From Alterinioella nitratireducens (GTDB lineage Bacteria; Pseudomonadota; Alphaproteobacteria; Rhodobacterales; Rhodobacteraceae), in contig NZ_JABJVX010000003.1 of assembly GCF_013155465.1 (NCBI RefSeq), positions 340,186 through 404,185 on the forward strand: a stretch of 64,000 bases of DNA, read 5' to 3'. Position 1 is the first letter of the stretch, and every line of letters begins with the position of its first letter. The position numbers and the translations under genes are program-made. This document shows, piece by piece, positions 13,209-46,152 of the stretch. The notes below the pieces were generated by a model. The model saw only the letters and a program-made list of their open reading frames with translations. It made no database searches and was not told where the DNA came from.

Positions 13209-13284
13209 CAGTGGAGCACAAGATTTGAGCTTCACTACCTCCCTGTTGGACTTTGGCCGAGAACTTGTTCTCGGCCTTTTTTTT
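13209..13284 (+). ncRNA. sRNA candidate 1 (anti-SD type)
   Basis: About 76 nt with a clear three-part design. A 5' hairpin pairs AGTGGAGC (13210-13217) with GCTTCACT (13229-13236, one G-U). An unpaired segment ACCTCCCTGTTGG follows. A strong terminator ends it: GGCCGAGAA/TTCTCGGCC (9 bp, loop CTTG) and eight T (13277-13284). CCUCCC can pair with Shine-Dalgarno sequences, as in other alphaproteobacterial Hfq-dependent sRNAs. The same design occurs at 45080-45170. There is no coding frame in the stretch. Confidence 0.6.
13255..13284 (+). terminator. terminator of sRNA candidate 1
   Basis: A perfect 9-bp stem GGCCGAGAA/TTCTCGGCC with a 4-nt loop is followed by T8. It lies 151 bp after the LysR stop and could also end that transcript. 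Confidence 0.85.
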
Positions 13285-43445: not shown

Positions 43446-45005
43446 CTAGCGCCCCCGGAACAGCCCGCCGAGAATACCGCGCACCACGGCGCGGCCCGAC
43501 TGGGTGCCGATCTGGCGCGCGAAGCTCTTGGCAAAGGCCGTGCCGACGCTGTCGGAGCGGGACGTGCGGCGGCGGGTCGGCGTGCTGCTGCTCGACCTGC
43601 CCACGCGGTTGCCGGAATAGCGCCGGCCAGCCTGGTATTCGCGTTCCGCCGCGCTCTCGGCCGCCTCCTCGGCCTGCTCGGCCTGCTCGGCTTCACGCGC
43701 CGCGGCCTCGGCGCGGGCGGCGAGAATCTCGAAGGCGCTTTCGCGGTCGATGCCCGTGTCGTATTTGCCCGCGACGGGCGATCCGTTCATCACAGCGCGG
43801 CGCGCATCCGGATCAATCGGCCCAAGCTGCGACGAGGGCGGGCGGATCAGCGTGCGCTGCACCACCCCCGGCACGCCCTTGCGCTCCAGCATCGAGGTCA
43901 CGGCTTCGCCGACGCCAACCTCGCGGATCGCGTCCTCGGTGTCGAAATCGGGGTTCTCGCGGTAGTTTTCCGCCGCCTGCCGCAACTCGCGCCGGTCCTT
44001 GCCAGTGAAGGCGCGCAGGGCGTGCTGCACCCGGTTGCCTAGCTGGCCCAACACATCCTCGGGCACATCCGCCGGATTCTGGGTGATGAAATAGACCCCG
44101 ACCCCCTTGGAGCGAATGAGGCGCGCGACCTGTTCGACCTTGTCAATGAGCGCCTTGGGCGCGTCGTCGAACAAGAGATGCGCCTCGTCGAAGAAGAAGA
44201 CCAGCTTCGGTTTGTCCGGGTCGCCGACCTCGGGCAGGATCTCGAAAAGCTCCGACAGCAGCCACAGCAGGAAGGTCGCGTAGAGGCGCGGGGAGTTCAT
44301 CAGCTTGTCGGCGGCCAGGATGTTGATGCGGCCAAACCCGGCCTCGTCATGGGTCATGATGTCGGACAATTCCAGCGCCGGTTCGCCGAAAAGGCGGTCG
44401 CCGCCCTGTCCCTCCAGCACCAGCAGCCGCCGCTGAATGGCCCCGATCGAGGCGGTGGAAACATTGCCGTAGCGCAAGGACAGCGTCTTGCGGTTCTCGC
44501 CCACCCAGACCAGCAGCGATTGCAGATCCTTGAGGTCGAGCAGCGCAAGCCCCTGTTCGTCGGCGACGCGGAAGGCGATGTTCATGATGCCTTCCTGGGC
44601 CTCGCTCAACTCCATCAGCCGCGACAGCAGCAGTGGACCCATTTCCGATATGGTGGTGCGCACGGGATGGCCGACCTCGCCGTAGAGATCCCAGAAGGTG
44701 ACCGGATAGGCGCGATAGGCGTAATCGGTGAAGCCGATGGTGCCCGCCCGGCCCATGAAGGCGTCATGCAGGTGGAAATCGGCCCGGCCCGAGGCGCCGA
44801 GGCCGGAGAGATCGCCCTTCACATCGGACAGGAAGACCGGCACGCCCTGCGACGCAAAGCTTTCGGCCAGGATCTGCAGCGTCACCGTCTTGCCGGTGCC
44901 CGTGGCCCCCGCGATGAGGCCGTGCCGGTTGGCGTATTTCAGCAGCAGGTGCTGCGGCTCGGCGTAGCCTGCGCCCCCGCCGCCGATGAAGATCCGATCC
45001 GTCAT
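43446..45005 (-). CDS. HerA-like ATPase (DUF853 family)
   Basis: The 519-residue protein is a HerA/FtsK-type P-loop ATPase of the YjgR/DUF853 group: GLIAGATGTGKTVTLQILAE (Walker A), FLSDVKGDLSGL, KPKLVFFFDEAHLLFDDAP (Walker B) and an arginine-finger-like VYFITQNPADVPEDVLGQLGNRVQHALRA. The C-terminal part is an Ala/Glu coiled region then an Arg/Ser-rich tail. Role not established. Start ATG 45005 (MTDRIFIGGGG). Confidence 0.9.
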   Translation of the reverse strand: MTDRIFIGGGGAGYAEPQHLLLKYANRHGLIAGATGTGKTVTLQILAESFASQGVPVFLSDVKGDLSGLGASGRADFHLHDAFMGRAGTIGFTDYAYRAYPVTFWDLYGEVGHPVRTTISEMGPLLLSRLMELSEAQEGIMNIAFRVADEQGLALLDLKDLQSLLVWVGENRKTLSLRYGNVSTASIGAIQRRLLVLEGQGGDRLFGEPALELSDIMTHDEAGFGRINILAADKLMNSPRLYATFLLWLLSELFEILPEVGDPDKPKLVFFFDEAHLLFDDAPKALIDKVEQVARLIRSKGVGVYFITQNPADVPEDVLGQLGNRVQHALRAFTGKDRRELRQAAENYRENPDFDTEDAIREVGVGEAVTSMLERKGVPGVVQRTLIRPPSSQLGPIDPDARRAVMNGSPVAGKYDTGIDRESAFEILAARAEAAAREAEQAEQAEEAAESAAEREYQAGRRYSGNRVGRSSSSTPTRRRTSRSDSVGTAFAKSFARQIGTQSGRAVVRGILGGLFRGR

Positions 45006-45079
45006 TGCCTGCCCCCTCGTTGCCGCTCCGGCGCTTAAGTCGCCGGTCACAATACATTCTTAACCCTATTGTGCCAGTC

Positions 45080-45170
45080 TGAGTCTCGTGCCGGGCACGG
45101 AATGATCCCGCGTCCCGGCATGAACTTCCTCCCTGTTAACTGGCCGCGCCGCATTGGCGCGGTTCTTTTT
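45080..45170 (+). ncRNA. sRNA candidate 2 (same design as candidate 1)
   Basis: A 7-bp 5' stem TGCCGGG/CCCGGCA (45089-45095, 45114-45120), an unpaired TGAACTTCCTCCCTGTTAAC segment, and a terminator CCGCGCC/GGCGCGG (45144-45162) followed by TTCTTTTT. The middle segment shares CCTCCCTGTT with candidate 1 at 13238. A possible -10 is TATTGT at 45067; the -35 is weak, so the 5' end is uncertain. Confidence 0.55.
45144..45170 (+). terminator. terminator of sRNA candidate 2
   Basis: CCGCGCC/GGCGCGG with a 5-nt loop and TTCTTTTT. No protein gene ends upstream on this strand, which supports an RNA gene. Confidence 0.8.
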
Positions 45171-45249: not shown

Positions 45250-45278
45250 TTGACGCAACGCCGGTGTCCCCATAACGT
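45250..45278 (+). promoter_or_regulatory. promoter of sRNA candidate 3
   Basis: TTGACG (45250-45255) and TAACGT (45273-45278) are spaced by exactly 17 bp, predicting transcription from about 45285. Confidence 0.55.
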
Positions 45279-45284
45279 GCGCTC

Positions 45285-45353
45285 ATAAGTCGGCCAGTCC
45301 GACAGGGAGAGAATAAAAAATTCTGAAAAGGGCCCCATCTGCGGGCCCTTTTT
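45285..45353 (+). ncRNA. sRNA candidate 3 (possible sponge)
   Basis: About 69 nt between a good promoter and a strong terminator. A 5' stem GTCGG/CCGAC is followed by ACAGGGAGAGAATAAA and a 10-bp terminator stem AAAAGGGCCC/GGGCCCTTTT. ACAGGGAG is a perfect 8-nt complement of CTCCCTGT in candidates 1 and 2. No start codon fits the AGGGAG as a ribosome site, so it is unlikely to be a leader peptide. The rest of 45354-45504 holds no clear element. Confidence 0.55.
45326..45353 (+). terminator. terminator of sRNA candidate 3
   Basis: AAAAGGGCCC/GGGCCCTTTT, 7-nt loop, T5 at the end; 152 bp before the next gene. Confidence 0.85.
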
Positions 45354-45504
45354 ACTTGGCCCATGAAGGGCTTGGCGAAAACGGGCCGATGGCGGCGCTC
45401 CGCGCCCGCGCGCCGGTGCATTTTGCGCCTGACAGTATCACGCGGCCATGTTAGCCAAGGACCGAACATACCGTTTTCTTCGCATCCATTGACGAGGCGT
45501 TCAC

Positions 45505-46152
45505 ATGAAACTGACGATCATCACCGCAGCCGCTTTGGCTGGCCTCCTGGCCCTGCCGCTGGCGGCGCAGGAAACCGAAACCACAGAAGGCAGCGGCGAC
45601 ACGCTTGGCCTGTCCACCGGCACGCCCGAAGTGGGTTCCACCTACCTGGAGGCCGAATTCGGCGATTGGGAAATGCGCTGCGTGACCGCGCCCGAAGGCC
45701 AGCCCGACCCGTGCCAGCTCTACCAGCTTCTGCGCGACCAGGACGGCAACGCCGTGGCCGAGTTCAACCTCTTCGACGTGCCCAATGAAGGTGACCTTGC
45801 CGCGGGCGCCACCATCGTCACGCCGCTGGACACGCTCCTGACCGGGCAATTGCGCATGGCCGTCGATAGCGCGCAGCCACGCGTCTACCCGTTCAGCTTC
45901 TGCCAGCCCATCGGCTGCTTCGTGCGCCTCGGCCTGACCCATGGCGACCTGGATGCGTTCCGCGCCGGCAACGTGGCCACGATCGCCATCGTGCCGCTGC
46001 CCGCGCCCGACCAGGTGGTGGCGCTTGGCCTGTCGCTTACGGGCTTCACCGCGGGCTTCGAGGCGCTGGAGGCCTATAATGCCGAGGCTCGCGTGCAGAT
46101 GGAGGCGCTGATCGGCACGCCTGACACCGAAAGCACCGAAGCGACCGAGTAA
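45505..46152 (+). CDS. invasion-associated locus B (IalB) family protein
   Basis: The 215-residue product has a cleavable signal peptide (MKLTIITAAALAGLLALPLAAQ) and an IalB-type domain: FGDWEMRCVTAPEGQPDPCQLYQLL, four cysteines likely paired, SFCQPIGCFVRLGLT, and an acidic end. It is periplasmic or surface-exposed. Family name derives from Bartonella invasion locus B; in free-living species the role is unknown. Confidence 0.88.
   Translation: MKLTIITAAALAGLLALPLAAQETETTEGSGDTLGLSTGTPEVGSTYLEAEFGDWEMRCVTAPEGQPDPCQLYQLLRDQDGNAVAEFNLFDVPNEGDLAAGATIVTPLDTLLTGQLRMAVDSAQPRVYPFSFCQPIGCFVRLGLTHGDLDAFRAGNVATIAIVPLPAPDQVVALGLSLTGFTAGFEALEAYNAEARVQMEALIGTPDTESTEATE

Follow-up and report, generated by a model that had tools for sequence, protein, structure and literature searches.

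Between a divergent gene for a HerA_C-type ATPase (43446-45005, minus strand; Pfam HerA_C 733.8 bits) and an ialB-like gene (45505-46152, plus strand; Pfam IalB 113 bits), the genome of Alterinioella nitratireducens has two short predicted plus-strand transcription units, which we call A and B. All positions refer to the window, the whole stretch of 64,000 nucleotides that was analysed, and the two genes served as synteny markers. A preliminary description of this DNA noticed that B exposes the complement of a seed found in A and in one more sRNA candidate, and proposed that B is a possible sponge encoded beside a member of the sRNA family that it would sequester. The question that the locus raises is thus whether B is a sponge, and if so, for which RNAs.

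The locus and its predicted transcripts

The sRNA A (candidate 2 of the preliminary description) is located at 45085-45170 on the plus strand, with an approximate 5' end, and consists of a 5' hairpin, a single-stranded UUCCUCCCUGUU seed and a terminator at 45142-45164. The seed 8-mer CTCCCTGT is found at 45129-45136. Upstream of A, the element CAATACA...TTAACC...TGCCAG (45050-45080 in the window) recurs in many loci, and on the minus strand it reads like CTGGCA-N17-TATTGT, which could serve the divergent HerA-type gene as a promoter. The pattern TTAACC...CCAG was considered as the promoter of A and rejected; in its strict form it was present in only 27 of 118 loci and we take it as the divergent HerA promoter.

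RNA B follows on the same strand about 115 nt past the terminator of A, and its position, its promoter and its terminator are all as first described. The promoter (45250-45278, plus strand) was read from the sequence as TTGACG-N17-TAACGT, with the -35 at 45250-45255, a spacer of 17 nt and the -10 at 45273-45278, and the Rho-independent terminator (45326-45352, plus strand) has a stem of 10 pairs and a T run. Together they predict a free-standing transcript of about 70 nt, 45285-45353 on the plus strand, the 5' end being placed from the promoter. The RNA starts with 21 conserved nucleotides, the core, GUCGGCCAGUCCGACAGGGAG (45289-45309), and the same plus-strand positions hold the pairing core GTCGGCCAGTCCGACAGGGAG as defined by conservation and by complementarity to the seeds of SorX, SorY and A. 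According to the fold prediction the core is a hairpin at 45289-45303 (stem GUCGG/CCGAC, loop CCAGU) followed by single-stranded AGGGAG at 45304-45309, so that the promoter of B is followed by the hairpin GUCGG-CCAGU-CCGAC, the unpaired AGGGAG, a stretch rich in A and, last, a strong terminator. The fold z-score was -2.8 for 45285-45353 and -4.0 for 45280-45355. There is one strong copy of B in the genome. An Rfam search of the locus gave no match above the cut-off, and weak matches of B to Thr_leader, DnaX and RsmY were taken as chance.

For the comparison with relatives we collected B loci from 141 of the 146 genomes in which the core was found (see below). Of 144 loci, 139 were kept, all with TTGAC upstream; three duplicates (L001, L021 and L046) were left out, as were L143 and L144, which have no promoter and were taken as chance. 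Counts of synteny, terminators and ialB elements are based on 146 distinct loci, after removal of four repeated sequences from a set of 150. Alignments were made from 45 drawn loci, 44 of them used for A (without L069) and 38 for B (seven left out).

A scanner with a strict sigma-70 rule reported 0 promoters at B, and the support for the promoter is comparative: a -10 of the TA type is found 17 nt from TTGAC in 127 of the 139 B loci of relatives, and 18 nt from it in one. The scanner assigned the terminator stem to the minus strand; the stem is usable on both strands and the T's follow its plus-strand side. A T run is present where expected after B in 138 of 146 distinct loci. By sequence, B has a conserved promoter and terminator, and it would be a transcription unit of its own that gives a free-standing RNA.

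The neighbourhood could also be read in another way, with B as a 5' leader or attenuator of ialB in which binding of an sRNA alters termination and hence ialB expression. ialB is indeed found downstream of B in 129 of the 132 distinct loci with enough flank, and in the consensus fold of the alignment AGGG forms pairs with the terminator's 3' half. That pairing is probably an artefact, since the terminator alignment is gappy, and the same probably applies to the second helix of R2, the model of B. The core does not overlap the terminator, which in the window folds on its own. The leader reading is further weakened by a promoter-like element that ialB has for itself, at 45429-45453 on the plus strand (CTGACA-N13-ATGTTA as read, the true -10 being uncertain). 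Where ialB lies downstream, a similar element occurs in 126 of 136 distinct loci (130 of 140 including duplicates), compared to about 0.05 per 140 in shuffled sequence, and the element is probably an ialB promoter separate from that of B. The HerA gene is nearly as syntenic, divergent and upstream of B in 121 of the 132 distinct loci with enough flank, so the linkage to ialB may be mere inheritance, and we find an ialB leader improbable.

AGGGAG resembles a ribosome-binding site, and B might be a leader-peptide RNA in which the complement CTCCC is the usual anti-Shine-Dalgarno coincidence. The preliminary description named a leader-peptide start after AGGGAG as an outcome that would speak against a sponge, and this was not borne out. 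A start codon (ATG, GTG or TTG) is situated 3-13 nt downstream in 45 of 139 loci (28 of them ATG) and lacking there in the other 94, and the open reading frames have scattered lengths, from 1 to 92 aa, so that neither a conserved start codon nor a conserved reading frame follows AGGGAG. The complementarity moreover spans the hairpin, far past any ribosome site, and we give the leader peptide hardly any credence.

The predicted partner sRNAs

A covariance model built from 44 A sequences (R1; the A of the window is among its loci) had 19 matches at E<=1 in the genome. Three were full-length with E<0.001, namely A itself (45123-45169, 56.3 bits), candidate 1 (46.2 bits) and a homologue of SorX (29.6 bits), and most of the others cover the terminator part only. 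Candidate 1 is a SorY-like sRNA at 13233-13281 on the plus strand, between a LysR-type gene and purL, with the seed 8-mer CTCCCTGT at 13239-13246. Its seed UACCUCCCUGUUGGACUU is that of the SorY consensus, save one inserted base before the seed. It scores 43.6 bits against Rfam SorY (RF02651), where the gathering cut-off is 111, which is why a default Rfam search misses it, and 39.6 bits against SorX (RF02784), below the cut-off of 46.6. The SorX homologue (L147:1501-1551, which is G000:C43:50974-51024) lies in the 3'UTR of a gene for an OmpR-type response regulator (Response_reg and Trans_reg_C), 61-111 nt past the stop codon. Against the same SorX cut-off of 46.6 it reaches 28.2 bits, and A 27.0 bits. 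As all scores are below the Rfam cut-offs, the homology to SorX and SorY rests on the seed, the architecture and, for SorX, the gene order. All three sRNAs have the features of SorX/SorY-type siblings: the seed CUCCCUGU, then (G)AC, GGCC and a terminator. In one relative, two SorX-type sRNAs are encoded on the same strand at a distance of about 200 nt (G198:C35:29512-29761; L304 and L308), perhaps through a tandem duplication.

In Rhodobacter sphaeroides, according to the portions of the publications that we draw on, SorX represses potA and limits spermidine uptake under oxidative stress (PMC9438474), SorY limits malate import under oxidative stress (PMC5036791), and both were co-precipitated with Hfq (PMC5036791).

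Complementarity of B to the seeds

The match that first drew attention to B is exact: ACAGGGAG at 45302-45309 is the complement of CTCCCTGT in candidates 2 and 1. The caution that AGGGAG may match by chance was also justified, since the window holds 3 matches to the 8-mer alone, for an expectation of 1.38, and at least as many are found in 19 of 100 shuffles. This is not significant, and we discarded the 8-mer statistics alone as evidence. The complementarity does, however, extend beyond the 8-mer to the whole 5' hairpin plus AGGGAG, and the core of B complements about 18 nt of the seed region in three sRNAs of the same genome, A, candidate 1 and the SorX homologue. The reverse complement of the core is CTCCCTGTCGGACTGGCCGAC, and A reads CTCCCTGTTAACTGGCCG at this stretch in the window and often CTCCCTGTCAGACTGGCCG in relatives. 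R1, the model of A, also has a match at 45315-45257 in the window (E 0.0035), on the strand opposite to B.

The duplexes predicted with B were -43.9 kcal/mol for the SorX homologue, -39.4 for candidate 1 and -34.1 for A, whereas shuffled B averages about -14 kcal/mol with the first two. With the SorX homologue there are 18 consecutive pairs by sequence, one of them G-U. When 31-nt stretches of the 64 kb were scanned every 6 nt on both strands, no other sampled stretch of either strand was predicted to pair with the SorX seed as well as B (-40.8 kcal/mol; the next, at -39.9, was the antisense of candidate 1), and for the SorY-like seed and that of A, B came second only to the antisense of the respective gene. 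The margins of B over the next window site were 0.9 (SorX), 3.8 (SorY) and 2.4 (A) kcal/mol. A full cofold of A and B gave a binding energy of -16.6 kcal/mol against a mean of -5.5 for 100 shuffled B, the best shuffle reaching -18.1. In the own genome, complements of the 13-mer seed with at most one mismatch were found in the SorX/SorY antisense and at only two further sites, neither of which we could assign to a start codon. B has, in other words, a complementarity to the seed of regulatory sRNAs that is specific and, as described below, conserved.

These results lead us to regard B as a probable free-standing sponge, or decoy, that would antagonise sRNAs of the SorX/SorY type. From the sequences, the original proposal of a sponge beside a family member is the best reading, but the emphasis on the adjacent member has to change, as A makes the poorest fit among the three local partners. 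SorX and SorY fit B better than A does, and B therefore seems shaped to match the family as a whole more than the sRNA next to it.

Distribution of B and its predicted partners

With at most two mismatches, the core of B occurs in 146 of 198 genomes of the family, compared to 12 of 198 for a reversed-pattern control (the control being counted by eye). In a sample of 197 family genomes, one per genus, R2 matches 188 at E<=0.1 and 165 at E<=1e-8, as counted by eye and with not every match inspected. The element is present in Ruegeria, Roseovarius, Shimia, Rhodobacter, Tabrizicola and the like, as seen in a collection of named genomes with at least 118 matching stretches. Among the matches listed there, 108 have the promoter, 85 of these also A, and the 10 of 118 listed stretches that lack the promoter were taken as chance. 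After removal of sequences that had already been counted, A was found in 81 of 104, again among the matches listed. In a sample of the class, 240 genomes, eight had R2 matches at E<=1e-6 and three of these are family members; the five matches outside the family were weak (23.7-26.7 bits) and had no core within 6 mismatches over the whole loci. One core-like site with 7 mismatches outside the family was taken as chance.

None of the 11 out of 197 family genomes with no or weak (E>1e-4) A-family matches has B at E<=1e-8, and in the 186 genomes with A-family matches, strong B is found in 165 and lacking in 21 (all by eye). Shared ancestry may explain part of this co-occurrence, a statistic that ignores phylogeny, as do the shuffle and permutation figures given below.

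A CCTCCCT sRNA is located 100-269 nt upstream of B (median 138) in 118 of the 139 loci. A diverged A is kept in eight of the remaining 21, and 13 have none (by eye). All of these 13 genomes hold other SorX/SorY-type sRNAs according to the R1 search, and in each of them at least one has a predicted duplex with the B of the same genome at -36 kcal/mol or better. They contain 30 A-family loci, of which 25 are better than -32 kcal/mol with B and five reach only -18.9 to -23.7, near the shuffled level, some of them being a mis-cut stretch. B is thus kept where the seed sRNAs are found elsewhere, and does not depend on A as a neighbour.

The distribution also has a bearing on which RNA regulates which. 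Pairing is symmetrical, and B could instead be the regulator, acting on mRNAs or other RNA through AGGGAG and the hairpin, with A (and SorX/SorY) as its decoy. It would agree with this that the weaker partner A is the one encoded beside B, and that the two kinds of RNA of a Caulobacter pair lower each other, as reported in the portions of PMC12559287 considered here. SorX and SorY are, however, trans-acting regulators with mRNA targets reported in the sources cited above, and the core of B consists of purines and is Shine-Dalgarno-like, as in a target mimic, with one strong copy in its genome. The pyrimidine seed, on the other hand, is carried by three sRNAs in the own genome and by at least one in every one of the 13 genomes that lack A. 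We consider the reversed roles unlikely, and prefer B as the sponge.

The pattern of change in B and in the seeds

Conservation within the core stops at the last G of AGGGAG, which is where pairing stops. In 133 of 139 B loci, 13 of 13 positions pair with the SorX/SorY seed and in the other six 12 of 13, while only 2 of 56,573 control 13-mers from upstream of B reach 12 seed pairs. The number of pairing positions is partly built in, since the loci were collected by their similarity to the core, but this does not apply to the direction of the changes. In the seed-pairing part, 81 of 94 changes are from A to G opposite a U of the seed, which keeps a G-U pair. The common ones, at position 13 (24 of 139) and position 15 (57 of 139), are both of this kind and explain why 133 loci still pair at every seed position, and the GGG opposite CCC is invariant in all 139. 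A loss of complementarity in relatives, which the preliminary description considered fatal to the idea, was consequently not seen, and genomes without A keep B.

A core this constant could also be a protein-binding or otherwise structural element made up of the hairpin and AGGGAG, with the seed match as something secondary. The hairpin does seem to be kept in its own right, for instance by a change from U-A to U-G in the stem in 6 of 38 sequences, and the core is near-invariant beyond what wobble pairing would demand. It is difficult to reconcile with such an element that the most variable seed-pairing positions (13 and 15, A or G opposite U) obey the wobble rule and that four two-sided changes track A, and we think that it is quite unlikely to be the explanation.

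The 118 neighbouring A-B pairs have a median of -37.7 kcal/mol, compared to a mean of -16.8 with mononucleotide-shuffled B, and none of 2360 shuffles reach that median, although poor pairs exist (L105 with -18.2 and L024 with -24.0 kcal/mol). Cognate pairs score -37.22 and swapped pairs -36.93 kcal/mol, and 6 of 2000 permutations reach the cognate value. An exchange of A between genomes costs just 0.3 kcal/mol because both sides are nearly fixed, which is what one would expect if one RNA must fit several partners. Columns were counted in the 83 ungapped pairs, 35 of the 118 having indels and being left out. Two-sided changes numbered four, where shuffles gave 0.56 (with four attained in 2 of 1000), and standard pairs made up 93.85% against 93.52% (0 of 1000). 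A joint change of both sides in relatives, for which the preliminary description suggested a test, is hence seen in part: the two-sided changes are in excess, but the cognate gain is only 0.3 kcal/mol, and for that reason we abandoned coevolution by pair swapping as the main support. Since cognate pairs barely beat swapped ones the covariation is thin, and the case rests on invariance. Position 10 of the A seed does not pair with B in 71 of the 83 ungapped pairs, whereas SorX and SorY carry a pairing G there, and A may be tuned as a weaker partner of B.

A possible mechanism and its implications

We hypothesize that B offers the sRNAs two landing sites, the loop CCAGU of the 5' hairpin and the adjacent single-stranded AGGGAG. 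Pairing could start at either one, as the fold prediction leaves both of them unpaired, and both are complements of sequence in the seed region. It would then spread and open the small hairpin, and the resulting duplex, some 18 bp long, would cover the seed (A)CCUCCCUGUUGGACU(N)GGCC that SorX, SorY and A have in common. This would hide the anti-Shine-Dalgarno seed, and the duplex would probably be cut by RNase III or RNase E. With their seeds blocked, SorX, SorY and A would release their mRNAs. The co-precipitation of SorX and SorY with Hfq, reported in part of PMC5036791 as mentioned, makes it likely that Hfq is involved, and help from Hfq, titration in vivo and a physiological signal for B would complete the picture. 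As SorX limits spermidine uptake and SorY malate import, B would turn the oxidative-stress response down.

It is conceivable, and we suggest it tentatively, that B is a general off-switch of the SorX/SorY oxidative-stress sRNAs of Rhodobacteraceae, an old sponge retained by roughly four in five of the genera sampled (165 of 197) and mostly encoded in tandem with a sibling, A, that buffers it. It would then be a second alphaproteobacterial sponge against anti-Shine-Dalgarno CCUCCCU sRNAs besides CrfA, built independently. We found no report of a SorX/SorY antagonist, and one short RNA matching all of the siblings simultaneously would account for the resetting of the response. If this is true, knock-out and over-expression data on SorX and SorY should be read with a sponge in mind. 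B and A make up an adjacent gene pair that can be tested directly in culturable roseobacters.

Comparison with known systems

Sponge RNAs are an already known kind of regulator, and what would be new with B is a widely conserved one with named partners. The literature that we searched on SorX, Rhodobacter and alphaproteobacterial sponges has no description of a B-like RNA or of a sponge for SorX or SorY, and B is not named in the portions of the main text considered from two sRNA surveys (PMC4809877 and PMC5107571). The predicted partners of B are SorX (RF02784) and SorY (RF02651), known from R. sphaeroides, and A, which shares their seed, is counted as a third sibling. A and candidate 1 also share the order of hairpin, single-stranded CCUCCCU and terminator with alphaR8/MmgR (suhB, RF00519), but score only 17.5 and 28.7 bits against that family, below the cut-off of 41. 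Unlike in alphaR8, their seed continues as GUUGGACU(N)GGCC, which is SorX/SorY-like.

Some sRNAs that act on other sRNAs are similar to B in principle. StsR is an sRNA of 72 nt in the related R. sphaeroides that acts on another sRNA, UpsM; judged by its description in parts of PMC8307010 it would be set apart from B by its partners, UpsM and the rpoE mRNA, and by being under RpoHI/RpoHII. QrrX of Vibrio is, like B, one sponge against a set of siblings, the Qrr sRNAs (PMC12559287, in part), but belongs to another bacterial class, has another seed and takes part in quorum sensing.

The nearest proven case for the action that we propose is CrfA of Caulobacter crescentus, an analogy that builds on portions of PMC12559287. 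There, a G/A-rich stem-loop sequesters four sRNAs, SisA-D (alphaR8), via their UUUCCUCCCU core, and the lowering is mutual and Hfq-dependent. Both CrfA and B are alphaproteobacterial sRNAs with a G/A-rich site against the anti-Shine-Dalgarno CCUCCCU seed of a group of siblings. The site of CrfA is its second stem-loop (G49-C63 protected), while that of B would be the 5' hairpin and AGGGAG at the very start of the RNA. Unlike CrfA, as far as the two can be compared by description, B usually has a sibling sRNA as its genomic neighbour, and the complementarity predicted for it extends over about 18 nt. Taken together with CrfA, B would point to dedicated decoys as a recurring means of restraining promiscuous CCUCCCU sRNAs.
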